A stretch of 43,211 bases of DNA from Bacteroidota bacterium (GCA_030706385.1 JAUZOQ010000021.1:1-43211); one strand, 5' to 3'; shown: positions 31,519 to 43,211, counted from the stretch's first letter. The notes: generated by a model from the letters alone, not told the origin. A program made the numbers and translations.

Positions 31519-32085
31519 ATGAATAAACGGGACACGATCGCCGTAGTTTTTCGAGTCGTTGCTGTCTTCATTTTCTTCATCAGCCTGGCAATCATTCCGA
31601 CCCTGATCTGGGAATGGTCTCTCGGTGAAATTCAATCATCTCTTGGGATGAAGGTCATCAAGACGATTCTTGTCCTCGGCATTCCGGGAATTGTCATTTA
31701 TCTTATCTGGAATCGAAGCGACTGGATCGCCGACAAGATCCTCGCTCCTTTTGGCATGGATGAATTATGGGTAGATGAAACCGATGGAACTGTGGAGAAT
31801 GCTGTTGTTCAGGAATCGACGATCACGCACTTAACGCGCAATGAAATTGAGTCCATCGCATTATCGGTTATCGGAATATTTGTATTTGTGAATGCTCTTC
31901 CGGATTTTCTTGCTCGTCTCATCATTATGCTCACATCCGGGAGTCCGATGTTCGTGTTTCCTACGGACTACAAATACCTGGTCGTGCCGGCCATGAAGTT
32001 AGGCTTCGCCGTTTGGCTTATCTTTCGCGCGAATCATCTGGTATCCTGGCTCGGCCGCTGGCGGGAGTTGCGGATGAAGGATTAG
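31519..32085 (+). CDS. Small integral membrane protein, function unknown
   Basis: From the ATG at 31519 (GAAAGGA upstream as Shine-Dalgarno) the protein has 188 residues and starts MNKRDTIAVVFRVVAVFIFF. Four hydrophobic segments are visible: near the N-terminus, VIKTILVLGIPGIVIYLIW, ALSVIGIFVFVNALPDFLARLI, and LVVPAMKLGFAVWLIF. A soluble stretch between spans 2 and 3 is acidic (DELWVDETDGTVE). No family was recognised. Its stop overlaps the stop of the convergent minus-strand gene by 4 bases (32082-32085). Confidence 0.75.
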   Translation: MNKRDTIAVVFRVVAVFIFFISLAIIPTLIWEWSLGEIQSSLGMKVIKTILVLGIPGIVIYLIWNRSDWIADKILAPFGMDELWVDETDGTVENAVVQESTITHLTRNEIESIALSVIGIFVFVNALPDFLARLIIMLTSGSPMFVFPTDYKYLVVPAMKLGFAVWLIFRANHLVSWLGRWRELRMKD

Positions 32086-32486
32086 ATCACGCTCGTTATC
32101 GGCGCTGCCAGCCGGAAGCTGATCGCGCTCATGCCATTTTCATCCTTGCACTTAAGCAGCGAAAGTCCGACAGTCATATAATCACCCGTTCCATACCTCG
32201 AGTATTTTGCTTCGCGATACGTTGCCTGCTTGAAAGCGAGCAGATACATGAGAAGGGTATTCGTTGCAGTTTGCGGCATCGGATTGACAGAAGTACGAAG
32301 AATGTAGTGATCGTCAGTTGTCGATCCTCCCGGGCATCCACACGGAGTTTCCTCCTCCGGAGCAGTCTGCAAGCTGACTGCAGCAAGAGGTAACGAACCC
32401 GCCGGTTGTAACGGAAATATGGAAGTCAGCGAAGGCACTTCGATCCAGGGATCGGAAGTCGAGTTTCTATAACGTAGTAAAAGCAT
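32082..32486 (-). CDS. Small phage-like protein of unknown function (end of head-gene set)
   Basis: From the ATG at 32486 the protein has 134 residues starting MLLLRYRNSTSDPWIEVPSL. A Cys-rich spacer (CGCPGGSTTDDHYIL) separates two beta-containing parts; the end reads AISFRLAAPITSVI. An extended start at 32594 would add 36 hydrophobic residues encoded by an A/T-rich repeat tract, which is unlikely. It is the last minus-strand gene of the phage-like set and sits where a tail-completion or tail-terminator protein might be, but no specific homology is visible. Its stop overlaps that of the convergent membrane-protein gene. Confidence 0.5.
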   Translation of the reverse strand: MLLLRYRNSTSDPWIEVPSLTSIFPLQPAGSLPLAAVSLQTAPEEETPCGCPGGSTTDDHYILRTSVNPMPQTATNTLLMYLLAFKQATYREAKYSRYGTGDYMTVGLSLLKCKDENGMSAISFRLAAPITSVI

Positions 32487-32490
32487 AGGC

Positions 32491-32535
32491 GAATGTAAAT
32501 ATAAGAATGTAAAATGTAAAATTAAAAATGTAAAA
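32491..32535. repeat. Tandem ATGTAAA-type period-7/8 microrepeat
   Basis: Several copies of ATGTAAA and close variants (AATGTAAA, ATGTAAA, ATTAAA) follow each other just 5' of the ATG of the minus-strand 32082-32486 gene. Confidence 0.65.
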
Positions 32536-32641
32536 GAAAAGGGGAAATCGGTCGATAATTCGGGAAATACTCTGGGGAGAGTTGGTGTTTGCATTCAGAC
32601 ACAGCTCACACTGGCATTTTTTATTCAAAAACCTTACGACT

Positions 32642-33625
32642 ATGAAACAGATCATTATCCTCTGCATGCTTTGCATCGCAATTTCCGTTCATGCTTCCGT
32701 ACCGAAACAGATCTCCGTTCAGGGAGAGCTTCGCGACGGAACCGGTAAACTCGTTACCGGTACTCACGTTCTGAAACTGAAACTCTATACCGATATGACA
32801 GCCGGTACTTTGCTCTACAGTGATGTCGAATCAGTGACACTGGATAACGGCATCTATGTAACCTTTCTTGGCAATCAAATCCCTTTGCCGGATTCTTTAA
32901 CATTTAGTGAGCAGTACTATCTGGGCATTTCAATCGATAATGGCGCCGAAATATCGCCTCGATTGGTACTGACTCCGGTACCGAATGCCATTTACTCGCT
33001 TCGTGCCGGTATTGCCGATAGCCTCAACCCTGCTGCTTCGGCGAATCCGAGCGGTGCGGCCGGCGGCGATCTATCAGGTTCGTATCCGAAGCCCGTTGTT
33101 GCTGCCATTCAATCGCAACCCGTTGCTCCCGGAATTCCGGCAAAAGGACAGACGCTGACCTGGGACGGAACGCAGTGGGCTCCTTCATCGGCAAATACGC
33201 CTGTTGCTTTCAACGTGCTCGGCGGCACATTCCAATCGCTGACTACGGGAGTAAACAATAAGATCGATTTCACCCAGAATTCCAATTCGGGTGCATTCGA
33301 TGATGGCGGCAATTTTTCTCTTGCCAATGATGTGTTCACCGCTCCTTCTGATGGATATTATTATTTTCATGCCATCGTCACCCTCGATACCAGAAGCCAA
33401 GGCGTAATGCAGGTCTATATGTACTTTGCCGTTAATGGCAACACCAGTGCTTACAACCGTTTTTATGATCTCTATAGCGGTTATCCTGCAATGCAGCTTG
33501 GTATGCCTCTGAAGCTTAAGGCCGGCGATCAAGTAAGCTTGCTGGTAAATCCCGATAAGACCGTCACAACCATGGGCGGCAACTCCTACGGAGTTGTTCG
33601 TTTTTCCGGATTCAAGATCAACTGA
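32642..33625 (+). CDS. Secreted protein with C1q-like C-terminal domain (paralogue 1 of 4)
   Basis: From the ATG at 32642 (context TACGACTATG) the protein has 327 residues. A signal peptide starts MKQIIILCMLCIAISVHA. The next block, PKQISVQGELRDGTGKLVTG to TPVPNAIYSLRAGIADSL, is the N-terminal module common in Bacteroidota secreted fibre proteins. A GGDLSGSYPKPVVAAIQSQP phrase, typical of phage tail fibres, links to the C-terminal ~130 residues. There FTAPSDGYYYFHAIVTLD and VSLLVN lead to the closing VVRFSGFKIN, the pattern of a C1q/TNF-like jelly-roll domain. Such domains trimerise and bind ligands. It is separated from the other three paralogues by two phage-like genes on the opposite strand. 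Confidence 0.8.
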   Translation: MKQIIILCMLCIAISVHASVPKQISVQGELRDGTGKLVTGTHVLKLKLYTDMTAGTLLYSDVESVTLDNGIYVTFLGNQIPLPDSLTFSEQYYLGISIDNGAEISPRLVLTPVPNAIYSLRAGIADSLNPAASANPSGAAGGDLSGSYPKPVVAAIQSQPVAPGIPAKGQTLTWDGTQWAPSSANTPVAFNVLGGTFQSLTTGVNNKIDFTQNSNSGAFDDGGNFSLANDVFTAPSDGYYYFHAIVTLDTRSQGVMQVYMYFAVNGNTSAYNRFYDLYSGYPAMQLGMPLKLKAGDQVSLLVNPDKTVTTMGGNSYGVVRFSGFKIN

Positions 33626-33627
33626 TC

Positions 33628-34071
33628 TTAGAATAACGTAAAGACATATTTTCCCGATACGCTGACAACGAACCGAGTATCGCCGAGCATAAGCACCGGT
33701 GCTTTTGTTGTGGTGATCATGGTGCGTTCGATGCGATAGGATTCTCCCGGACTGACGGAAGGCGGAATGTAGAGCGGATCGTTCAGGAATCGCTCGATAA
33801 TATTCGTCATATCGGAATGATTGAGATATGCATTATCAATTCCTCGAAGCGGCAGTGTGTAATACGCTGTCACTACAAACTCCTGTTCACCGGCAGTGGC
33901 TTTTCCGGTGAGATCGAAATGCGTATAGGTTGTCTTGCCAAGATCGAAACTGAAACACGGGAATCCCGATAAGGGAAGTTTCTTCAGATCGAAGTGCTGA
34001 ATGTTCTGCCAGCCTGAATACGTGACAAGCTGCAGAATGCATGAAGTACGAAAATTTTGTTCGCGAGTCAT
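33628..34071 (-). CDS. Phage-like minor structural protein (putative head-tail or tail-completion)
   Basis: The 147-residue protein (MTREQNFRTSCILQLVTYSG...) lies directly downstream of the gp6-like connector gene on the same strand. In HK97-like phages that position is occupied by head-closure or tail-completion proteins. No domain can be named by eye. The strands FVVTAYYTLPLRGI, ESYRIERTMITTTK and DTRFVVSVSGKYVFTLF suggest a small beta-rich protein. It could equally be an unrelated cargo gene. Its stop is three bases from the stop of the convergent C1q gene (33625). Confidence 0.5.
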   Translation of the reverse strand: MTREQNFRTSCILQLVTYSGWQNIQHFDLKKLPLSGFPCFSFDLGKTTYTHFDLTGKATAGEQEFVVTAYYTLPLRGIDNAYLNHSDMTNIIERFLNDPLYIPPSVSPGESYRIERTMITTTKAPVLMLGDTRFVVSVSGKYVFTLF

Positions 34072-34110
34072 AGCATTATATGTTAAGGATTAGAGAACTT
34101 GGCGGGTAGA

Positions 34111-34184
34111 CAGTTTACAGTAAGCAGTTAGCAGAAAGATTATTCCTTGCCTACTGCCTACTGCAAACTGCTTACTGCAAACTC
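34111..34184. repeat. Imperfect 24-bp inverted repeat built of heptamers
   Basis: CAGTTTACAGTAAGCAGTTA followed by GCAG (34111-34134) pairs with CTGCAAACTGCTTACTGCAA plus ACTC (34161-34184); 21 of 24 positions match, with a 26-base spacer. The right arm and spacer show heptamers of the type NNACTGC. It lies upstream of the 34071 start and reaches the stop of the connector gene. Confidence 0.75.
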
Positions 34185-34764
34185 AAACAGCAATCCGCTT
34201 GTACGGCGCCAGCATTTCTTTTTGCCGTGCGCTGAGTTCGATATAGCGGATGCGATCGGAAGTCGTATCGAGCTTATCGGATTCGCTGAAAGCTCCGAGC
34301 CTTCCGCCGCCTTGTTTGGATTCTTCGAAGATGACGGCAGCGATCTCCGTAATGACTTGCTTCACCATTTCCGGACACCGAAGAGTTGTCGGTAGATTAT
34401 AGGTGAGCCGGTGTTCGAAACATCGTTCGAATTTTCTTCCGGCGGTAACGACGAGTATCCCTTTGGCCATCAAAAATGCTTCGGATATATCGACGATCGT
34501 TTCGCTGCCTGAGCTATCATAATATTTCCAACTCAGCAACGCTCCAGCCGGATCATTAAGTCGTTGAACGCGACGGCCGTTGCCGAAGAAAACCTCGGTC
34601 TTCTCCGCACCCGGAGTATAGTCGCGGTCAAGGTAGGTATAGACTCTCTCAGTTGCTGTATCGAGAAGTATTTGGTAGAATGCAAGGATCGTTGTATCGG
34701 TCGTTGAATCCTTGAGGTAATTCTGAAAGTCGCTTAACGCGACAGGAGATGGGTAGGTGGGCAT
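34183..34764 (-). CDS. Phage head-tail connector-like protein (gp6-like)
   Basis: This 193-residue protein (MPTYPSPVALSDFQNYLKDS...) is mostly alpha-helical and resembles the HK97 gp6-type / DNA-packaging 'head-tail connector' family: an N-terminal helix with FYQILLDTATERVYTYLDRD, then a beta-containing centre (VEVFFGNGRRVQRL-like segment) and a helical C-terminal half (CPEMVKQVITEIAAVIFEES). These proteins form the ring under the portal in siphoviruses. Its order after protease and capsid fits a head module. The identification rests on pattern and order rather than on diagnostic residues, and a profile search would settle it. Confidence 0.62.
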   Translation of the reverse strand: MPTYPSPVALSDFQNYLKDSTTDTTILAFYQILLDTATERVYTYLDRDYTPGAEKTEVFFGNGRRVQRLNDPAGALLSWKYYDSSGSETIVDISEAFLMAKGILVVTAGRKFERCFEHRLTYNLPTTLRCPEMVKQVITEIAAVIFEESKQGGGRLGAFSESDKLDTTSDRIRYIELSARQKEMLAPYKRIAV

Positions 34765-34865
34765 AATGTATTATATTGGTTGATTATGAGATTGAGATTC
34801 AGAGTTGCTTGTGATGTAACTTTGGTGTTTTCCGGGCGTTGTTTGTATAAATATATTCTTCATCC

Positions 34866-35825
34866 ATGAAGCGAATATTCGGGCTGCTGCTTTTTTTGCT
34901 TCTTTCCTTCAGTTCTCTTTCTGCGCAGATCCCTAAAGCGATCGGATTTCAGGGCGTCGTTCGCACTCCTAATGATAGTTTCCCGCAAGGGCTGCACTTA
35001 GTATACTATTCACTCTATTCTTCGGCAACTTCGGCAGATCCCGTTTATCTTGAGATACAGAAACCACGGTTGACGGGTGGAGTATTTTCGGGATTGCTCG
35101 GAACGCAGCGGCCGATCCCGGATTCGGTTACTTTCGATAAGCCATACTGGCTGGGCATTTCCGTTGACAACGAGAATGCACTGACACCGCGATTTCAGCT
35201 TACATCGGTACCCTACGCACTCCATGCAACGATGGCCGATGGCCTCGCTCCTGATTTTCAGTTGCCGGCAACACGTATCGGCGTTCCTGTGCCAATCTCC
35301 GGTACTGCTCGCGGAGATCTATCGGGTTCATATCCAGCGCCACTGGTTTCGGGCATTCAATCGAATCCCGTTTTGCCTGAAACTCCGAAAGATGAGGATA
35401 TCCTCTGGTGGAATGGCGCGACATGGAGCCCGCGCCCATCGGCAGTGCACAGCTCCTTCAATATCGTTGCTTCCGATTCGCAATCCTTTGTTAATGATTC
35501 GTTGACGATTGTCAAATTTTCCGGTCAAAAAACGGTTGCTGCATATAATATTGGGGGCAACTTTGACCAGGCATCAAATTCGTTCACCGCACCTGCCGAC
35601 GGATTCTACCATTTTGATGTGTTCTTAATTTTTTCGGAGATTGCATTCGTTACCGTCGGTTTTCAAACTGCGGCATTCCCGATTATTGGTAGTCAGGAAT
35701 TCCAGTCGAACATTATCGAATATCATACTTCCATTCCGCTTCTGCTCGGAGAAAAAGTGCGGCTCTTCGTTAAATCGACGAGGTATTTGAACTCCGCCCG
35801 TTGGAGCGGCTTTAAGATCAATTGA
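34866..35825 (+). CDS. Secreted protein with C1q-like domain (paralogue 2 of 4)
   Basis: The 319-residue protein has the same design as the one at 32642. A signal peptide (MKRIFGLLLFLLLSFSSLSA) precedes PKAIGFQGVVRTPNDSFPQG, SVPYALHATMADG ends the N-terminal module, and the RGDLSGSYPAPLVSGIQSNP linker follows. The C-terminal C1q-like part holds NSFTAPADGFYHFDVFLIFS and ends RWSGFKIN. Its TGA overlaps the ATG of the next gene (TGATG, 35823-35827), so the three genes 34866-37830 form a coupled operon. An A/T-rich promoter-like stretch (GTTGTTTGTATAAATATATT) lies about 20-40 bases upstream. No T9SS signal is present, so export beyond the periplasm, if any, must use another route. Confidence 0.82.
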   Translation: MKRIFGLLLFLLLSFSSLSAQIPKAIGFQGVVRTPNDSFPQGLHLVYYSLYSSATSADPVYLEIQKPRLTGGVFSGLLGTQRPIPDSVTFDKPYWLGISVDNENALTPRFQLTSVPYALHATMADGLAPDFQLPATRIGVPVPISGTARGDLSGSYPAPLVSGIQSNPVLPETPKDEDILWWNGATWSPRPSAVHSSFNIVASDSQSFVNDSLTIVKFSGQKTVAAYNIGGNFDQASNSFTAPADGFYHFDVFLIFSEIAFVTVGFQTAAFPIIGSQEFQSNIIEYHTSIPLLLGEKVRLFVKSTRYLNSARWSGFKIN

Positions 35826-36826
35826 TGTTTTTGAATATGCGCATTATTGCGATTTATATGTTCATGATGGCTTCTGTCAGTTCCGCACTCGGACAGATGC
35901 CTCGTGCTTTTTTTTACCAGGCCGAGATCAGAAATAGCGACGGAAGTCATGTTAAGGATAGCGTGCATTTGGTAACCTTTACTTTGTACGATGCAGCGTC
36001 GGGCGGAAATGTGCTCTTTACTCAAACCGGACAAGAAGCAATTCGAAATGGAATCCTGAGTGCTGCAATCGGCCGGCCAAACCCATTGCCCGATTCTCTC
36101 TTATTCACAAAGCCGTATTATCTTGGGATATCAATTGATACGTATTCCGAAATCCAACCTCGAACTGCGCTTAACTCTGCACCGTATTCGCTGCATTCAG
36201 CGTTAACTCGCAGCCTTACGCAGGATGCTATCATTGCACCGGAAATCCTTCCGAAATTCTTTCCTGCAATTGGCCCGGCCGGCGGAGACCTCATCGGGTC
36301 ATATCCGAGCCCGAAAGTAGTCGCACTGCAATCAAAACCAGTTGCTAATATTTCGCCAACAATAAATAGTGCTCTTCAATGGAATGACAGTGTTTGGACG
36401 CCAACACCATTTCCGGGCCCAGTAGCATTTCATGTATTTGGATCCGGCGAATCGATCCAACAAGTGGGATCGTATTATCCGATTAAATCCTACGATGTTA
36501 ATGATCCATCCTGTTTCAACTACAATAATGATTTTGAGATAAGCCGTGGTACGTTCATTGTTCCGCGATCAGGCATCTATCATTTCGATGCCTATCTGAA
36601 GGGTTTGCCCAATTCACCGGAGCGGATTGCTTTGTCGGTCGATGGGAATGCCAGGAATGTAATGAATTTCATTCAGATCGGTTCTCATACCTGGCAGCAC
36701 GGAGAGTTGGGTCAATGGCAATATAGCGTAACTATTGCGCTTCAGGCCGGTCAGAAGGTACAACTTGTTTACTCACCGGCAATAACTGATCTGCATGCCG
36801 ATTTCTCAGGATTCAGAATTAGATGA
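35825..36826 (+). CDS. Secreted protein with C1q-like domain (paralogue 3 of 4)
   Basis: The ATG at 35825 overlaps the preceding TGA; a further ATG at 35837 also yields a signal peptide (MRIIAIYMFMMASVSSALGQ). The 333-residue product again has the N-terminal module (PRAFFYQAEIRNSDGSHVKD ... SAPYSLHSALTRSL), the GGDLIGSYPSPKVVALQSKP linker and a C1q-like C-terminus (TFIVPRSGIYHFDAYLKGLP ... FSGFRIR). The last residues are conserved among all four paralogues. It has diverged clearly from its neighbours in the middle, which points to an old duplication. Its stop overlaps the next start as ATGA. Confidence 0.8.
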   Translation: MFLNMRIIAIYMFMMASVSSALGQMPRAFFYQAEIRNSDGSHVKDSVHLVTFTLYDAASGGNVLFTQTGQEAIRNGILSAAIGRPNPLPDSLLFTKPYYLGISIDTYSEIQPRTALNSAPYSLHSALTRSLTQDAIIAPEILPKFFPAIGPAGGDLIGSYPSPKVVALQSKPVANISPTINSALQWNDSVWTPTPFPGPVAFHVFGSGESIQQVGSYYPIKSYDVNDPSCFNYNNDFEISRGTFIVPRSGIYHFDAYLKGLPNSPERIALSVDGNARNVMNFIQIGSHTWQHGELGQWQYSVTIALQAGQKVQLVYSPAITDLHADFSGFRIR

Positions 36827-37830
36827 ATACTCAGCGATCAATCATAACACTAATTCTTCTTACGTGCTGCAGTATTGCAAGCGCTCAGATTCCGCGTACG
36901 ATTGAATATCAGGGAAAAGCAGTCCTTCGTAACGGTGATCCGGTCAGTGATGGAATACACTCCCTGATCATTTCCATCTATAATTTACAAGTTGGTGGCG
37001 ATCTTCTTTTTTCCGATAGTCAGCAAGTGCGGACTACCGCCGGATTGTTTTCTACTGCGATTGGCCGCGGGTCTTCGATACCGAATTCGCTTTCGTTCGA
37101 CAGTGTCTATTATGTCGATATTCGTATCGATGGCAGCGCACAACTTGCTCCGCGAACGGCATTTGCTCCGGTGCCTTATTCATTGAATGCCGAGTCTTCG
37201 AGCGGCCTTACACGAAAAGCAGTCATTCCGTCCGATCTTATTCCATTACTCTTCACTTCTGCGGGCTCAGCTCGAGGCGATCTTTCCGGTGCGTATCCGA
37301 ATCCGAACGTCGCAGCCTTGCAGGGTAATCCGATCTCCTCGCGCCAGCCGAAGAATGGAGATTATCTTCAGTGGGATGGAAGCTCCTGGGGGCCGCAAGC
37401 ATTTCCGAATGCTCATGCCTTCCGAGTAAGTGCCGATCTTCGTTTCCACCCGGTGATCTCAAGGCAAGTATTTGCACCTGCGTTTGATTCGATCGGGTCG
37501 ATGAATGAAGGAAACGATTTTTCATTCACTTCCCAGTCCTTTATCGCACCGCAGGACGGATTGTATTCCTTTGAATCTTGGCTCAACGTATCAGCGCCGG
37601 TGGATGGAAATATCCGAATGGAATATGATGTGAACTCCAATCCCGCAAGCTTTCAGGATTATCCGGTCGAATTTGCGAACACTCAAGGGTTAAAGGATTA
37701 TCACTTCACCTCTATGCTCGAACTGAAGAAAGGGGATAAAGTCCAATTTGTCTTCAACCCCCTTATCAGGACGTTCGTGACAAACGTGGAGATTAACGTA
37801 TGCGTCTTCTCTGGTTATCGAGCTGATTGA
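36823..37830 (+). CDS. Secreted protein with C1q-like domain (paralogue 4 of 4)
   Basis: The ATG at 36823 overlaps the stop of the preceding gene (ATGA). The 335-residue protein has a signal peptide (MNTQRSIITLILLTCCSIAS, AQ), the N-terminal module PRTIEYQGKAVLRNGDPVSD to PVPYSLNAESSSGLTRKAV, the linker RGDLSGAYPNPNVAALQGNP and a C1q-like end (SFIAPQDGLYSFESWLNVSA ... VCVFSGYRAD). It ends the operon and is followed by a bidirectional hairpin. Ligand and localisation are unknown; a heterotrimer between paralogues is possible (inference). Confidence 0.8.
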   Translation: MNTQRSIITLILLTCCSIASAQIPRTIEYQGKAVLRNGDPVSDGIHSLIISIYNLQVGGDLLFSDSQQVRTTAGLFSTAIGRGSSIPNSLSFDSVYYVDIRIDGSAQLAPRTAFAPVPYSLNAESSSGLTRKAVIPSDLIPLLFTSAGSARGDLSGAYPNPNVAALQGNPISSRQPKNGDYLQWDGSSWGPQAFPNAHAFRVSADLRFHPVISRQVFAPAFDSIGSMNEGNDFSFTSQSFIAPQDGLYSFESWLNVSAPVDGNIRMEYDVNSNPASFQDYPVEFANTQGLKDYHFTSMLELKKGDKVQFVFNPLIRTFVTNVEINVCVFSGYRAD

Positions 37831-37876
37831 GCTCCATCTCTAAAATTAGCCAAGCTCTCACCCGGCCAAATACAAT

Positions 37877-37910
37877 TGCCGGAGCATTCTCCGCGGCGAA
37901 TGCTCCGGCA
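37877..37910. terminator. Strong hairpin between convergent genes
   Basis: TGCCGGAGCATTC and GAATGCTCCGGCA form a perfect 13-bp stem with an 8-base loop. It sits between the 37830 stop (plus) and the 37916 stop (minus). The flanking T tracts are short, but the stem is strong. Confidence 0.7.
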
Positions 37911-37915
37911 GTTGG

Positions 37916-38134
37916 TTAATTATTCTTCGGCGGATCTGCCAGATGTAGGCCGTGCGCCGATAGGACGGTTGCGATTCCGACAATGATGCTGGCAATGTTC
38001 GAGACTACTGGCGGAAGCCCCGGGATCTGCTCGGCAAGGCCGGCCGCCGTTAAGAGGCCTGTTCCGATTCCGGAAATAGTTTTGAGAACATTGGCTCCGT
38101 TGATCTTGAATAAGGATGAAAAGAATGTATTCAT
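37916..38134 (-). CDS. Holin-like small membrane protein
   Basis: From the ATG at 38134 the protein has 72 residues: MNTFFSSLFKINGANVLKTI..., two hydrophobic segments (ISGIGTGLLTAAGLAEQI and VVSNIASIIVGIATVLSAHG) joined by a short turn, and a polar C-terminus. That is the layout of small phage holins. A longer start (38245) would add residues encoded by the TAGTTGG-type repeats and was rejected. It follows the DUF5675 gene, a pairing often seen in Bacteroidota phages. The function as a holin is inferred from topology and context. Confidence 0.58.
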   Translation of the reverse strand: MNTFFSSLFKINGANVLKTISGIGTGLLTAAGLAEQIPGLPPVVSNIASIIVGIATVLSAHGLHLADPPKNN

Positions 38135-38136
38135 GG

Positions 38137-38211
38137 TGTAGTTTAGTAGTTGGTAGTTTAGTAGTGTGGTAGCTGGTAGCTGGTAGTTTTGGAGTTTGGT
38201 AGTAGGTAGGG
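38137..38211. repeat. Tandem GTAGNTG-type microrepeat
   Basis: About ten degenerate copies of a 7-8 base unit (GTAGTTG, GTAGTTTA, GTAGCTG, GTAGTAG) run immediately 5' of the minus-strand holin-like gene. Confidence 0.7.
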
Positions 38212-38330
38212 TCGAGCGCTGATTCGAAGATATGCTTAGGTGCAATTCGCGTAGTGTGTATAGGAAAATAGCTCACACTGTTGTGAGTGCACGAAAGACA
38301 GATGACTTTCTCTTAAGAGACGATCTCCCG

Positions 38331-38741
38331 CTAACCTTCAGATCGGACGATCTGGATCTTCACAGCGCCATGCTGCAAACCCATTTTCAGTTTCGGAAAG
38401 AAATCATCGAATGCCATTCGCGACTGGCCGATGAAATCGGTCCCTTTCGTCTTACCGAGCAAGATACATCCTTCCGTATTGGCAGCAGTGTTGCCGGGAT
38501 GGATGCGAATGCCATCGAACATCGGAACATTCAGGACATGCGGCATGGGGCGCCCGAAGCGAGTCGAATTATCGATGATTACGCTATACTCGCCATAAGG
38601 AATTGCCGTAGCCTTGGGAATTTTCACTCCTTCGGCTCTGGTCACATCTTCTAAGGTATAACATTCGAATACGTCATCGATATAAAGCGATCCGATCGTG
38701 CTCGTGGCAGAAAATATCTGTCGAATGAGTTTGAGTTGCAT
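38331..38741 (-). CDS. DUF5675 family protein (putative phage cell-wall protein)
   Basis: The 136-residue protein is a DUF5675 member by pattern: MQLKLIRQIFSATSTIGSLY, the motif YTLEDVTRAEG, then PYGEYSVIIDNSTRFGRPMP and IRIHPGNTAANTEGCILLGK. The last motif, with His81 and Cys92, recalls the catalytic His-Cys pair of L,D-transpeptidases (YkuD: HG...S.GC), so activity on peptidoglycan is plausible but unproven. DUF5675 genes occur often in phages and prophages of Bacteroidota. Neighbours are a holin-like gene downstream and the major capsid gene upstream, all on the minus strand. Confidence 0.85.
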   Translation of the reverse strand: MQLKLIRQIFSATSTIGSLYIDDVFECYTLEDVTRAEGVKIPKATAIPYGEYSVIIDNSTRFGRPMPHVLNVPMFDGIRIHPGNTAANTEGCILLGKTKGTDFIGQSRMAFDDFFPKLKMGLQHGAVKIQIVRSEG

Positions 38742-38787
38742 AATGATAAAGTGGAGATGTTAAAGCAATAATGGAAACCGTAACAAT

Positions 38788-38819
38788 TGCAGAGACGCTC
38801 TGCAGCGCGTCTCTGCAAA
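38788..38819. repeat. REP-like palindrome TTGCAGAGACGC / GCGTCTCTGCAA
   Basis: Perfect 12-bp arms (38788-38799 and 38808-38819) enclose an 8-base loop, eight bases past the stop of the capsid gene. The AGAGACGC/GCGTCTCT core resembles dispersed palindromic repeats known from several phyla. It may also act as a hairpin for ending the capsid transcript, although a T tract is missing. Confidence 0.72.
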
Positions 38820-38826
38820 TTAACGA

Positions 38827-40047
38827 TTAACTTGCGCTCGTGCTCAGGATTCCGAGGTAGCCTGGCTGTCCGACTCCGAAGGCAATGCGCTCTGTCATCC
38901 GCAGCATCTGCAAGTCGTTGGTGAAGGCATTGACTCCTTCAGCAGTTGCATCGAAGCTGACACGCACATCCATTCCTCCATGCTGGCCGAGCCAGCATCC
39001 TGCCGTACGCAAATTCCCGAAGATCGCGAATGGAGTCGAGGGATGCGAACTCGTATCGTATGCCGAAATGAGAATGCCATTCGGGATCACCACGATCGGG
39101 AAGCCGCGGAACATCAGGTTTGTCACATTAAGGCCTTGCGCTCCGGCAATATTCGGAACAGCAGAACTTGTGAGGTCCCATAAGTATCGGCTATTCGTAT
39201 CTTTCAACTTCAAGAGATCGGTCAGCGAATTCTGCTCGACGAAAAGCGACGCTCCGCGCTGTTGTGCAGGTGGAAGCGACTGAATAAGCGAAATCAGATC
39301 ATCGAATTTGATATCGGTGAATTTCGTCTTGCCGCTTGTCGATGTTCCGCCGAGATAGGTTGTGACAACTCCCGAAGTATTGAGAATTCCCGTGAATGGA
39401 GATCCCGATCCACGGAAGACTTGCGTATCCTCTTCCTGTGCAAAGACATTGGTGAAGATGCGAACGATCGTATTATAGATATCGATGTTCGCATCGTCCA
39501 ATAATTCATTCGAGATCGGATAGATCGCTGCAAGTTTCTTTGCTGTCAGAGTCAATCTTCCGAATGTTGCTTTCGAAGAGGGAATCGCTGTGTTCTCATC
39601 CGTCCAGGTCACCGAAGGTTTTCCGGCAAGAGTAGAGACGTTCAGGACATTCGATCGCATCGAAACTTGCGCACAATACTTGCGTGCAAATCCGAATTCA
39701 TTGAGGAGGAAGATTACATCGGCAAAGAATTCTTCCGGCACAAGGTAGCCTCCGGCCGAATTTGTCCCTTCGAGCTGTGGCGCAAGGAGCTTGACATATT
39801 CCGGATCATACGTCGATTGGATCGATCGCAGCTCGGAATAATTATTCGCTGCAAGTGCCGAAAAGAAGCGGAAAGTCTTGCGGATCTTCTCGCGCTCAGC
39901 ATTCTTCGGGCTCGAAGCATCAAGCCCTTTCAATGCGGATCTATCCGGAAGTGATTTAATGCGTTTAGTAACAGCTTCATCGATCAGAGAGCGCATCTCG
40001 TCACGATTAGCAGTAAGTGTGTTGGTGTTTTCGTTCATTGTGATCAT
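38827..40047 (-). CDS. Phage major capsid protein, HK97 family
   Basis: This is a 406-residue HK97-fold capsid protein. The N-terminal ~80-100 residues are helical and charged (delta/scaffold region, RDEMRSLIDEAVTKRIKSLP). The capsid domain starts around GTNSAGGYLVPEEFFADVIF and contains AQVSMRSNVLNVSTLAGKPS, KLAAIYPISNELLDDANIDI (spine helix/E-loop region) and the later FGNLRTAGCWLGQHGGMDVR followed by FTNDLQMLRMTERIAFGV. It would be cleaved by the S78 protease encoded just upstream. The length is normal and the frame is intact, so the gene does not look decayed. The start could be at 40047 or at the second ATG (40038). Confidence 0.93.
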   Translation of the reverse strand: MITMNENTNTLTANRDEMRSLIDEAVTKRIKSLPDRSALKGLDASSPKNAEREKIRKTFRFFSALAANNYSELRSIQSTYDPEYVKLLAPQLEGTNSAGGYLVPEEFFADVIFLLNEFGFARKYCAQVSMRSNVLNVSTLAGKPSVTWTDENTAIPSSKATFGRLTLTAKKLAAIYPISNELLDDANIDIYNTIVRIFTNVFAQEEDTQVFRGSGSPFTGILNTSGVVTTYLGGTSTSGKTKFTDIKFDDLISLIQSLPPAQQRGASLFVEQNSLTDLLKLKDTNSRYLWDLTSSAVPNIAGAQGLNVTNLMFRGFPIVVIPNGILISAYDTSSHPSTPFAIFGNLRTAGCWLGQHGGMDVRVSFDATAEGVNAFTNDLQMLRMTERIAFGVGQPGYLGILSTSAS

Positions 40048-40110
40048 AGTGGTTGTTTAGTAAGTGAGTGGTTTTGTTAAATGGGGAAGCTCTTAGCGAA
40101 TAGGCAAGTG

Positions 40111-40141
40111 GACGGATAGACGTATAGACGGATAGACGTAT
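40111..40141. repeat. Octamer array (GACGNATA), left copy
   Basis: GACGGATA GACGTATA GACGGATA GACGTAT: four 8-base units, equal to two 16-base units. The reverse complement, with one difference per 16-mer, recurs at 40763-40794 on the other side of the four-helix-bundle gene. Confidence 0.8.
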
Positions 40142-40228
40142 CGTGGGTAGATGTGAAGCGGATTGATATTCTGACTGAATTGTGATGAGAAGTAAGCGAG
40201 TGATCATGCGAAACGGAGAAGCGTTTAG

Positions 40229-40236
40229 TATATTTG
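40229..40236 (+). promoter_or_regulatory. Candidate -7 element (TATATTTG) for the four-helix-bundle gene
   Basis: It matches TAnnTTTG about 78 bases upstream of the ATG at 40314. No -33 TTG is evident. Confidence 0.4.
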
Positions 40237-40313
40237 CGAGTTGAGGTATAAGCGTGTAAGGTCTAGACGCAAAGTAAAGTATTCGTGTTAACTATTTTCT
40301 AACTTTGACATCA

Positions 40314-40679
40314 ATGAAAAAAATAATTCAGACGTATCGGGATCTTAAGGCATGGAATGAAGCCATGGATCTTGTAGAAGATATCTATAAATTGACAAAG
40401 ACATTGCCGCCGGAAGAGCAGTACGGACTCAAAAGTCAGATCCGCCGATGTGCTGTATCACTTCCTTCAAATATCGCAGAGGGCCACGGCAGAAAGGGTA
40501 ATAAAGAATTCATGCATCACCTCTCGATTGCGAAAGGATCGTTATCCGAATTAGAGACCCAACTCATCTTATGTGTTCGTCTTGAGTATGTTTCCAGAGC
40601 CGATCTAAAGCCCGTCTGGAATCGTGCACAAACTCTTAGCAAGCTCATCTCCGGATTAATCCGCTCGCTCCTGAAATAG
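40314..40679 (+). CDS. Four-helix-bundle protein (S23 / 23S rRNA intervening-sequence family)
   Basis: From the ATG at 40314 it has 121 residues and shows the family pattern: YRDLKAWNEAMDLVEDIYKL, then YGLKSQIRRCAVSLPSNIAE, GHGRKGNKEFMHHLSIAKGS and LSELETQLILCVRLEY. The small basic helical protein occurs encoded in 23S rRNA intervening sequences or freestanding in many Bacteroidota genomes; the DGR accessory protein Avd has the same fold. No rRNA, reverse transcriptase or template/variable repeat is nearby. It is flanked by inverted octamer arrays. It is the only plus-strand gene between the capsid and protease genes. Confidence 0.9.
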   Translation: MKKIIQTYRDLKAWNEAMDLVEDIYKLTKTLPPEEQYGLKSQIRRCAVSLPSNIAEGHGRKGNKEFMHHLSIAKGSLSELETQLILCVRLEYVSRADLKPVWNRAQTLSKLISGLIRSLLK

Positions 40680-40762
40680 TCTCCTCATACAATTGATCGT
40701 CCCTTCCGCGCCCATGAATTGCGCGTTCACTTCTTTGTGTCCAAAATCTAACCCTAAAGCCT

Positions 40763-40838
40763 ATACGTCGATCCGTCTATACGTCGATCCGTCTTTCCCC
40801 TCCATACGCCCATTCGCCAATACCCCCATACGCCCACC
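40763..40838. repeat. Octamer arrays, right copy (inverted) plus CCCATACG run
   Basis: Two exact 16-base units ATACGTCGATCCGTCT (40763-40794) are the inverted counterpart of 40111-40141. A second octamer series of CCCATACG type (CCATACG, CCCATTCG, CCCATACG) extends to the stop of the protease gene at 40839. Confidence 0.78.
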
Positions 40839-41465
40839 TCAAATCATCTCCGCTGCTTCGCCGAGCGTCAGTTCCTTCGAAGCCGGCTCGCCGTCGTCTA
40901 CTGCATACGGATTGCATGGTAGCTCCACTTTCGAGATTTCGATAAGCTCCCATTTCGTGAATCGGTAGCCGCCAAATTCATTCGGCTCCCATTCGATCGG
41001 CCGGAAGCCGATGGAATTGGCAGGAAGATATCCGGCCTTATCCATTTGAAAGATCTTCTCGGCAAATTCGGAAGTCTCAGAAGTTGCGTATTCAGCAAGT
41101 GCATAGAGTGCATCCTGAGTTTTTACAAGCTTCAGGATTTTCCCGAGAGTATGCACCGGCTCTGCAGTCTGGCCGTGCGACCAGAGGAATTGCGGATTGC
41201 GCAGAAAGTTATCCGTGATCGCACCTTCGATGATCATCTCATCGCCGGAACGGTCCGGATCGCTCGTCGCAACTTTCAGCCACTTCATGCGCGATGGAGA
41301 AGAAAAATCTGTCTCTTCGTTTTGTGTGTTCAAGACGGCAAGATCCTTTTGGTTCATTTCATTTTCCGTATCGGCAGCAAGAGTCAAAGTGCCGTTTTTC
41401 AGGAAGATGATCTTTCCGGGTATATTTTTGTATCTGGATTCTAGGTTGTTCTGTGTATTGGTCAT
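40839..41465 (-). CDS. HK97-type prohead protease (peptidase family S78)
   Basis: This 208-residue protein matches the phage prohead maturation protease. The catalytic His is in NPQFLWSHGQ (His97) and the Ser in PANSIGFRPIEWE (Ser151), the expected spacing and motifs for the S78 family. The C-terminal part FTKWELIEISKVELPCNPYA is the conserved end block. The protease cleaves the delta domain of the capsid protein during maturation. Order protease then capsid on the same strand is the classic head-module layout. Upstream, where portal and terminase genes are expected, only unrelated lipoprotein genes on the opposite strand are found. Confidence 0.9.
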   Translation of the reverse strand: MTNTQNNLESRYKNIPGKIIFLKNGTLTLAADTENEMNQKDLAVLNTQNEETDFSSPSRMKWLKVATSDPDRSGDEMIIEGAITDNFLRNPQFLWSHGQTAEPVHTLGKILKLVKTQDALYALAEYATSETSEFAEKIFQMDKAGYLPANSIGFRPIEWEPNEFGGYRFTKWELIEISKVELPCNPYAVDDGEPASKELTLGEAAEMI

Positions 41466-41627: not shown

Positions 41628-42182
41628 ATGAAGCGCATCCTCAGCTCCCTTTTTCTTATGGTTCTGCTCAGTTGCGGACAATCACATGCGCCGCTGGCTA
41701 ATCATGTTGTCGTCCGAATGCGCGACAACTCCACAAAAGATTATTTCTTGCTTGCGATCCATGATAGTTCGCTGATCGTCGCACCATTTGTCAAAGGTGA
41801 ATCGATCGATCTCGGTTCGTTAGTCGGATCTGCAGAATCGATTCCATTTTCATCCATTCGAGTCGTTACACATTCCGAGAAGGCTTCCGGCGATGACGAA
41901 TTCATCGGAGGATTCATCGGCTGTTTCACGGGCGGCACGATCGGCGGCTGCGCCGCAGCCCAAAGTGCGTTTGGTGAAAACTCCGTGCCACCAACACTGC
42001 CGGTGGCAGTGCTCTACATTGCCAGTCCGTTTATTGGAATTGGTGTTGGAGTTCTCATTGCCGATCTCATGGCCGCTGGAAATGAAGAATATTTTCTCGA
42101 TACCAAACCGCAAATCGAAAATTTGCGGCACTTCGCGTATTACTCGAAGCAGGAACCACCACAATTGAAGATTCTTAAATGA
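41628..42182 (+). CDS. Glycine-zipper lipoprotein (paralogue 1)
   Basis: The 184-residue protein starts MKRILSSLFLMVLLSCGQSH, with a lipobox (LLSC). The mature part begins with a beta-rich segment (VVVRMRDNSTKDYFLLAIHD, SSLIVAPFVKGESIDLGSL), typical of all three copies, and carries a Gly-rich region (FIGGFIGCFTGGTIGGCAAA) and a hydrophobic segment (VLYIASPFIGIGVGVLIADL) with GxxxG steps. The C-terminus resumes a polar domain with FLDTKPQIENLRHFAYYSKQ. It is a lipid-anchored protein that may also insert hydrophobic glycine-zipper helices into a membrane. Its TGA overlaps the next ATG (ATGA). Confidence 0.8.
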   Translation: MKRILSSLFLMVLLSCGQSHAPLANHVVVRMRDNSTKDYFLLAIHDSSLIVAPFVKGESIDLGSLVGSAESIPFSSIRVVTHSEKASGDDEFIGGFIGCFTGGTIGGCAAAQSAFGENSVPPTLPVAVLYIASPFIGIGVGVLIADLMAAGNEEYFLDTKPQIENLRHFAYYSKQEPPQLKILK

Positions 42183-42739
42183 AGAAGATCGCTTCGTCGC
42201 TTCTCTTAGTCGTACTGCTAAGCTGCGGCACATCGCAGCCCAATGTGCATAATCGGATCAGCATTCAATTCCGCGACTCAGCCATCGGTGATTTCTTCCT
42301 CCTTTCGGTGCGCGATCATTCAGTTGTTGTCGCTCCGTATGCCAGCGAGTATATTTCCGTTGGTTCACTCATCATTACTGCGAAGAATGTTCCGTTCGAA
42401 AAGATCGAGAAGATCTACTATAAGGGCGATCGTATGCCCGGAAGTATTGTCCTTCCCGCACTCGGAGGTGCTGCGATCGGCGGCTGCGCAACGTGTCATT
42501 ACCAATGCAATATCACCGGCGATGGCGGCGGAATGAGCGCCGATGAAATTCATCGGCAAGAGCGGATTCAACTCTTCGGCCTCGGCGGCGGATTTCTCGC
42601 CGGAGCGCTCCTTGGTTACTTTTTCAACTATCAGGATCAGGAATACTCGCTTACCAGTACGCATGACATCCAGCATCTTCGCAATTTCTACGCGCTATTC
42701 CCGAATAAAGAGCCGTCAGATCTGGAGCAGATAAAATGA
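42179..42739 (+). CDS. Glycine-zipper lipoprotein (paralogue 2)
   Basis: The 186-residue protein starts MKKIASSLLLVVLLSCGTSQ, again with an LLSC lipobox, and repeats the layout of its neighbours: beta-rich ISIQFRDSAIGDFFLLSVRD, SVVVAPYASEYISVGSLIIT, a Gly-rich zone VLPALGGAAIGGCATCHYQC, a hydrophobic GLGGGFLAGALLGYFF segment and a C-terminal polar part (YSLTSTHDIQHLRNFYALFP). Its Cys-His-Cys segment (CATCHYQC) is not shared with copy 1 and might bind metal or haem. It starts 4 bases before the previous stop and ends as ATGA with the third copy. Confidence 0.8.
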   Translation: MKKIASSLLLVVLLSCGTSQPNVHNRISIQFRDSAIGDFFLLSVRDHSVVVAPYASEYISVGSLIITAKNVPFEKIEKIYYKGDRMPGSIVLPALGGAAIGGCATCHYQCNITGDGGGMSADEIHRQERIQLFGLGGGFLAGALLGYFFNYQDQEYSLTSTHDIQHLRNFYALFPNKEPSDLEQIK

Positions 42740-43211
42740 AGAGTATCTTCTATTTTGCTCTTTTGCTTACACTGATCCTCAGTAGTTGCGCCTCGCATCC
42801 GACGCAGACGAACCGGATCAATATTCAGTATACAAATGGGCAAAGTCAAGATGCTATCCTTCTTGCAACCCGGCCGAAAGCTCTGCTCGTCGCTCCGGTG
42901 AATATCGGCGAGTCACGCGATACGCTTTTAGCATCGGCCACAAGTATTCCGATGGATTCGGTCTTTCGTGTTTCCTTCTCTCGAAAGCCCGTGCTCACCG
43001 ATGCAATTCCTGGCGCGCTCTGGGGATTGCCTCTCGGTTTAGTCGCCGGCTATTTCGTTTTTGCAGCGATCGCCCCTCCATTTGGCGGATTGTTTTTCGC
43101 GACATATTGGGTCGCGACTCCAATCATCGGATCCCTCGTCGGCGGAGCGATAGGCTATGCGACCGGAGCGCAGAGCCGGGAATTCGATCCTCACGATTTT
43201 CGCGATTATAT
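42736..43211 (+). CDS. Glycine-zipper lipoprotein (paralogue 3, partial, runs off right edge)
   Basis: The frame opens with ATG at 42736 (overlapping the previous TGA) and stays open to the end of the window, 158 codons plus two bases. It starts MKSIFYFALLLTLILSSCAS with a lipobox (LSSC), then the same beta block (INIQYTNGQSQDAILLATRP, ALLVAPVNIGESRDTLLASA), and a hydrophobic Gly-rich region (ALWGLPLGLVAGYFVF ... GSLVGGAIGYATGAQSREFD). The C-terminus is cut. More copies could follow beyond the window. Confidence 0.78.
   Translation, partial: MKSIFYFALLLTLILSSCASHPTQTNRINIQYTNGQSQDAILLATRPKALLVAPVNIGESRDTLLASATSIPMDSVFRVSFSRKPVLTDAIPGALWGLPLGLVAGYFVFAAIAPPFGGLFFATYWVATPIIGSLVGGAIGYATGAQSREFDPHDFRDY

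Follow-up and report, generated by a model that had tools for sequence, protein, structure and literature searches.

A phage-derived head module inherited throughout a family of Bacteroidota is probably a DNA-packaging system of gene transfer agent type

The window, the whole stretch of 43,211 nucleotides analysed here, is contig C76 of a 161-contig genome of a Bacteroidota bacterium (G000). Its GC content is uniform throughout, and its left part consists of ordinary host genes such as those for a release factor and a carbamoyl-phosphate-synthase-type protein. Further along lie phage-type head genes on the minus strand, interleaved with genes on the plus strand:

32082-32486, minus strand: c11, tail-tube- or neck-like protein (predicted structure, weak; conserved)
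32642-33625, plus strand: C1q-like secreted paralogue 1, accessory (PF00386, E 7e-5)
33628-34071, minus strand: c9, tail-terminator-like neck protein (predicted structure; conserved)
34183-34764, minus strand: gp6-like head-tail connector (phrog_442, E 3e-5)
34866-35825, plus strand: C1q-like secreted paralogue 2, accessory (PF00386, E 4e-3)
35822-36826, plus strand: C1q-like secreted paralogue 3, accessory (PF00386, E 1e-4)
36823-37830, plus strand: C1q-like secreted paralogue 4, accessory (PF00386, E 4e-4)
37916-38137, minus strand: holin-like small membrane ORF (weak assignment, from sequence alone)
38331-38741, minus strand: DUF5675 protein (PF18925, E 4e-33)
38827-40047, minus strand: HK97-fold major capsid protein (PF05065, E 5e-42)
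40305-40679, plus strand: 23S rRNA-IVP four-helix-bundle protein (PF05635, E 2e-39)
40839-41465, minus strand: S78 head-maturation protease (PF04586, E 9e-7)
41628-43211, plus strand: three tandem lipoprotein paralogues, the last running on into contig C21

A preliminary description had named these genes on these strands, and Pfam and PHROG matches bear it out for the capsid, protease, DUF5675 protein and connector as well as for the four C1q-like paralogues and the four-helix-bundle gene on the other strand. The DUF5675 protein is probably lysis-related; searches of Pfam and PHROG with the holin-like ORF gave zero matches. The C1q matches of all four paralogues are weak (E 7e-5 to 4e-3), lying slightly below the Pfam cut-off, and paralogue 4 shares 32-35% identity with paralogues 1-3. 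Full-length C1q-like relatives in this genome are confined to the head-gene cluster (32642-37830), and ten further proteins of the genome have the N-terminal domain alone in common with the paralogues. The 23S rRNA-IVP gene, situated between capsid and protease and far from any rRNA operon, is probably an insertion unrelated to the module.

The preliminary description reported neither terminase nor portal, which is true inside the window, but both are encoded on an overlapping contig and go unseen because contig C76 ends, an assembly artefact. The window's last 62 bases are the first 62 of contig C21 with 2 mismatches, and related lipoprotein genes run across the break. Extension past the contig end, as the description had itself proposed, thus places the start of the portal gene about 1.1 kb and that of the terminase gene about 3.5 kb past the window end:

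C21 1135-2382, minus strand: portal, intact
C21 3579-5111, minus strand: large terminase (TerL)

TerL is followed on C21 by a small ORF and an XRE regulator, and an XRE gene adjoins TerL in several genomes of the family. The Walker motifs and nuclease aspartates of TerL are invariant, as are H97, S151 and E176 of the protease in nine genomes, residues which we take to be catalytic in both proteins. Two more TerL paralogues occur in G000, at 4398-5924 of contig C41 (L064) and at 3-986 of contig C106 (L065), the C41 copy adjoining an AAA_25 ATPase and a D12 DNA methylase in a mobile-element-like arrangement.

Capsid, portal and TerL are present in all ten near-complete genomes of the family (at least 90% complete, at most 5% contaminated). 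The capsid gene is single-copy in the family, extra match rows being pieces of split or interrupted matches, and its product shows 66-86% conservation across relatives; the gp6-like connector has about 50% identity in seven relatives, and c11 is single-copy in nine family genomes. The clusters, roughly 10-20 kb long, share a recurring order of small ORF, TerL, portal, S78 protease, capsid, gp6 connector, c9 and c11. The set previously placed in phage order therefore stands in part, with capsid, protease, connector and the small proteins conserved but DUF5675 and the holin-like ORF outside the conserved genes. Genus g3 adds an SLT lysozyme and a membrane protein to the module, and the latter, considered as a pointer to a second locus, was discarded, being restricted to this genus with one per genome.

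The chromosomal surroundings of the module vary among genera, g3 excepted, and host-type genes lie amid the head genes in the clusters of the family, mostly on the opposite strand. These are C1q proteins in genus g1 and T9SS-type proteins elsewhere; in addition, in both g1 and g2 the gap between portal and protease holds lipoprotein genes of the same family, and a membrane protein gene separates TerL from portal in g3. In G001, a relative from the same genus as G000, the C1q genes directly follow the capsid gene and DUF5675 is absent there. In G008, a protein of 2166 aa that weakly matches a T9SS sorting domain is encoded between capsid and connector on the head-gene strand (L017 1223-7723, minus strand).

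The two small proteins c9 and c11, described earlier as unknown, are present but not featureless, since both are conserved throughout the family and have predicted folds of tail-terminator and tube or neck type (mean pLDDT 82-85), with zero PHROG matches for either. The predicted structure of c9 resembles the tail terminators T5 p142 (TM 0.6) and lambda gpU, and that of c11 is nearest, weakly, to lambda gpV and other tube-fold proteins (E 1e-3, TM 0.3-0.5). Genome-wide searches with three models, for the tape measure (PF10145, PhageMin_Tail), baseplate J and sheath, found none of these family-wide. The preliminary description had named a complete prophage just outside the window as a find that would refute it, and this is half borne out: terminase and portal do lie there, whereas around the examined clusters a tail module was looked for and not recognised. 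The particle could lack a tail or have a short one, or its tail may be encoded elsewhere, the genome-wide search having covered three tail families. Flanking PHROG matches named 'central tail fiber J', 'Hoc-like' and 'major/minor tail' were considered as tail genes and read instead, at group level, as Ig/FN3-type domains of secreted proteins. In G002, sheath and baseplate-J matches lie 9 kb apart on contig C1 (L184 and L120, at about 172.9 and 181.8 kb), not family-wide, and probably belong to a separate contractile injection system. The PHROG matches listed for 65 proteins surrounding the clusters of G002 and G008 include no integrase, and the integrase, replication genes and complete tail of an active temperate phage are unseen in the flanks of these two clusters and in the window.

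Comparison of 7-10 genomes per gene, leaving out G001, revealed zero internal stops, with dN/dS of 0.07-0.27 in the closest pairs; between G000 and G001, open stretches gave 0.04-0.15. The dN/dS comparison across relatives that had been proposed as a check thus yields about 0.04-0.27. Synonymous divergence, rough because the values are near saturation, is alike in capsid, portal and rpoB, dS between G000 and G001 being 1.32 for capsid and 1.22 for rpoB, and between G008 and G007 1.34 for capsid, 1.38 for portal and 1.18 for rpoB. All strongly supported splits are common to the capsid and rpoB trees, which differ at weaker nodes within g3. The module is vertically inherited and co-diversifies with its host, and the earlier suggestion of a domesticated capsid is upheld by the intact frames, purifying selection and vertical inheritance. 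Frameshifted orthologues, which the description had said would speak against its reading, are limited to G001, where a frameshift disrupts the capsid gene, the portal gene is split, a partial second copy being present, and an in-frame stop interrupts TerL, indicating either a lineage that is losing the module or a faulty assembly. The neighbouring protease, XRE and C1q genes of G001 are open (L024, L066).

A single-sequence search at 1e-5 found no capsid in 48 genomes of the class's other families. A capsid-profile search of 294 class genomes gave matches in ten genomes of a second family, f6, and in five others:

L212, 4173-9080: f6 head-module locus
L204, 8130-13229: f6 head-module locus
L205, 7878-13135: f6 head-module locus (further f6 loci likewise)

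The f6 loci examined in detail encode portal, protease, capsid, gp6 connector, a conserved 204-aa protein and an endolysin-like protein, with T9SS-type genes around them, and protease and capsid are fused in several genomes. Three unsaturated comparisons gave dN/dS of 0.04-0.06. A similar but more reduced head module is thus found again in another family of the class, and the IMG/VR contigs L219 and L220 resemble it and place it amid host-type genes. The 204-aa protein was compared with the g3 membrane protein as a possible relative and is unrelated. One f6 locus has a TerL with 54% identity to that of L221, an IMG/VR contig which looks like an ordinary tailed phage. L221 shares with the module of the first family (f1) the order TerL, portal, protease, capsid and connector, but runs on into more genes, probably for a tail as judged by position only, and weak connector similarity is its only link to the f1 module; c9 and c11, compared with its tail proteins, showed zero relation to them.

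No close phage source of capsid, portal, TerL or connector emerged from GenBank phages or IMG/VR: the best deposited matches have about 25-34% identity, none exceeds about 34% across most of the protein's length, and pattern-based IMG/VR scans stayed at or below about 31% by the same measure. The nearest solved structures for the capsid (6tba, 6tb9) and portal (6tba) are, at profile level, those of RcGTA, the alphaproteobacterial type I gene transfer agent (GTA) of Rhodobacter capsulatus. Both systems comprise a host-inherited HK97-type capsid, portal, TerL and neck proteins, though their homology is distant only, and RcGTA carries a complete 49 nm tail (PMC9662315) whereas here terminator- and tube-like proteins alone are recognised and secreted host-type genes are interleaved. 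The TerL proteins of known GTAs share only 14-20% identity among themselves (PMC9662315). BaGTA of Bartonella and BhGTA/VSH-1 of Brachyspira are independently domesticated, vertically inherited sets of phage-derived particle genes (PMC9662315) and in this resemble the present module; they occur in other hosts and their packaging is demonstrated, whereas packaging by the present module is predicted.

The window's capsid genes make up one half of a machine for packaging DNA that has passed down through this family of environmental bacteria, relatives of Ignavibacteria, and has apparently been kept working for a long time. GTAs are defined by particle proteins of caudoviricete descent, mostly vertical inheritance, fully endogenised genes, a caudovirion-like particle with a tail, packaging of mostly random host DNA without all of their own genes being packageable, and delivery of that DNA to other cells (PMC9662315). 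Caudoviricete ancestry is evident here from the capsid, protease, portal, TerL and connector matches and the terminator fold, and endogenised genes from the host-gene setting with no integrase among the matches listed. The module is therefore probably a vertically inherited, host-domesticated DNA-packaging head module of GTA type, since motor, portal, maturable head, neck, selection and host inheritance fit the parts of the definition that sequence can address (PMC9662315). This reading is drawn from the portal and TerL on the adjoining contig, their presence in all ten genomes and the order kept across genera; from purifying selection, synonymous divergence equal to that of rpoB, tree agreement and invariant catalytic residues; and from the distance to deposited phages, the lack of an integrase among the matches listed and the position of RcGTA as nearest solved capsid and portal. 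Against it stand a complete tail found neither around the clusters nor by the three-model search, where studied GTAs are tailed, the broken capsid, portal and TerL in G001, and surroundings that differ between genera outside g3.

The same undetected tail would suit domesticated, DNA-filled heads, tailless or short-tailed, that transfer no genes and serve DNA sequestration, a lysis-linked kin function or the carriage of surface proteins encoded in the cluster. The interleaved secreted and lipoprotein genes, of which one lipoprotein family holds the same position in both g1 and g2, lend this account some weight, but it is unlikely, if worth keeping in mind: the conserved terminator-like and tube-like proteins suggest tail-like attachment, and the lysis-type genes point to release. 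Rather less probable again is a lineage-restricted temperate phage, or a satellite borrowing helper tails, present in all family genomes. The additional TerL paralogues of G000, one of them next to ATPase and DNA methylase genes, the PhageMin_Tail phage gene of G005 and the variable surroundings would accord with such an element, but the capsid is single-copy in every near-complete genome, synonymous divergence and tree follow rpoB, integrase is absent among the matches listed and secreted host-type genes sit between the head genes. The preliminary description had also offered a decayed prophage, which the few phage genes left and the broken genes of G001 might recall; intact frames in the other genomes, dN/dS of about 0.1 and invariant catalytic residues lead us to reject it as very improbable. 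Encapsulin shell proteins have the HK97 fold, but we know of no encapsulin with portal, TerL or maturation protease, and the other earlier proposal, a nanocompartment of capsid and protease alone, which the window by itself would suggest, is scarcely credible and was rejected because an intact portal and a TerL catalytically intact by its motifs, both conserved with the capsid in every near-complete genome, lie just past the contig end.

In the GTA-type module, TerL would dock at the portal of an HK97 procapsid matured by the protease and fill this shell with DNA, after which gp6, c9 (terminator-like) and c11 (tube-like) would close the neck. Particles assembled in this way may be released by lysis genes, DUF5675 and the holin-like ORF here and the SLT lysozyme and membrane protein in g3, and host regulators such as the XRE gene beside TerL could control the process. 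The cargo would be host DNA rather than the module's own genes, and related cells the presumed recipients. It is possible, if well short of likely, that the machine is a stripped-down GTA-like one of motor, head, neck and lysis genes with no true tail, family-wide here and reduced in the second family, whose DNA-filled heads are released by lysis and whose DNA then enters cells by some other means, for example surface receptors or competence.

GTAs have been shown experimentally in alphaproteobacteria, Brachyspira, Desulfovibrio and Methanococcus (PMC11841831), and in the literature searched the pairing of GTAs with Ignavibacteria is absent and none is reported for the phylum. As a caution, a contig end or a prophage caller can conceal a system of this kind. 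A candidate present throughout a family of this phylum, with its reduced and interleaved architecture, would if true mean that domestication is commoner than known, and the module would offer a way to test whether such a particle can dispense with a tail. For the family itself, the module would most likely serve to pack and share pieces of its members' own chromosomes.
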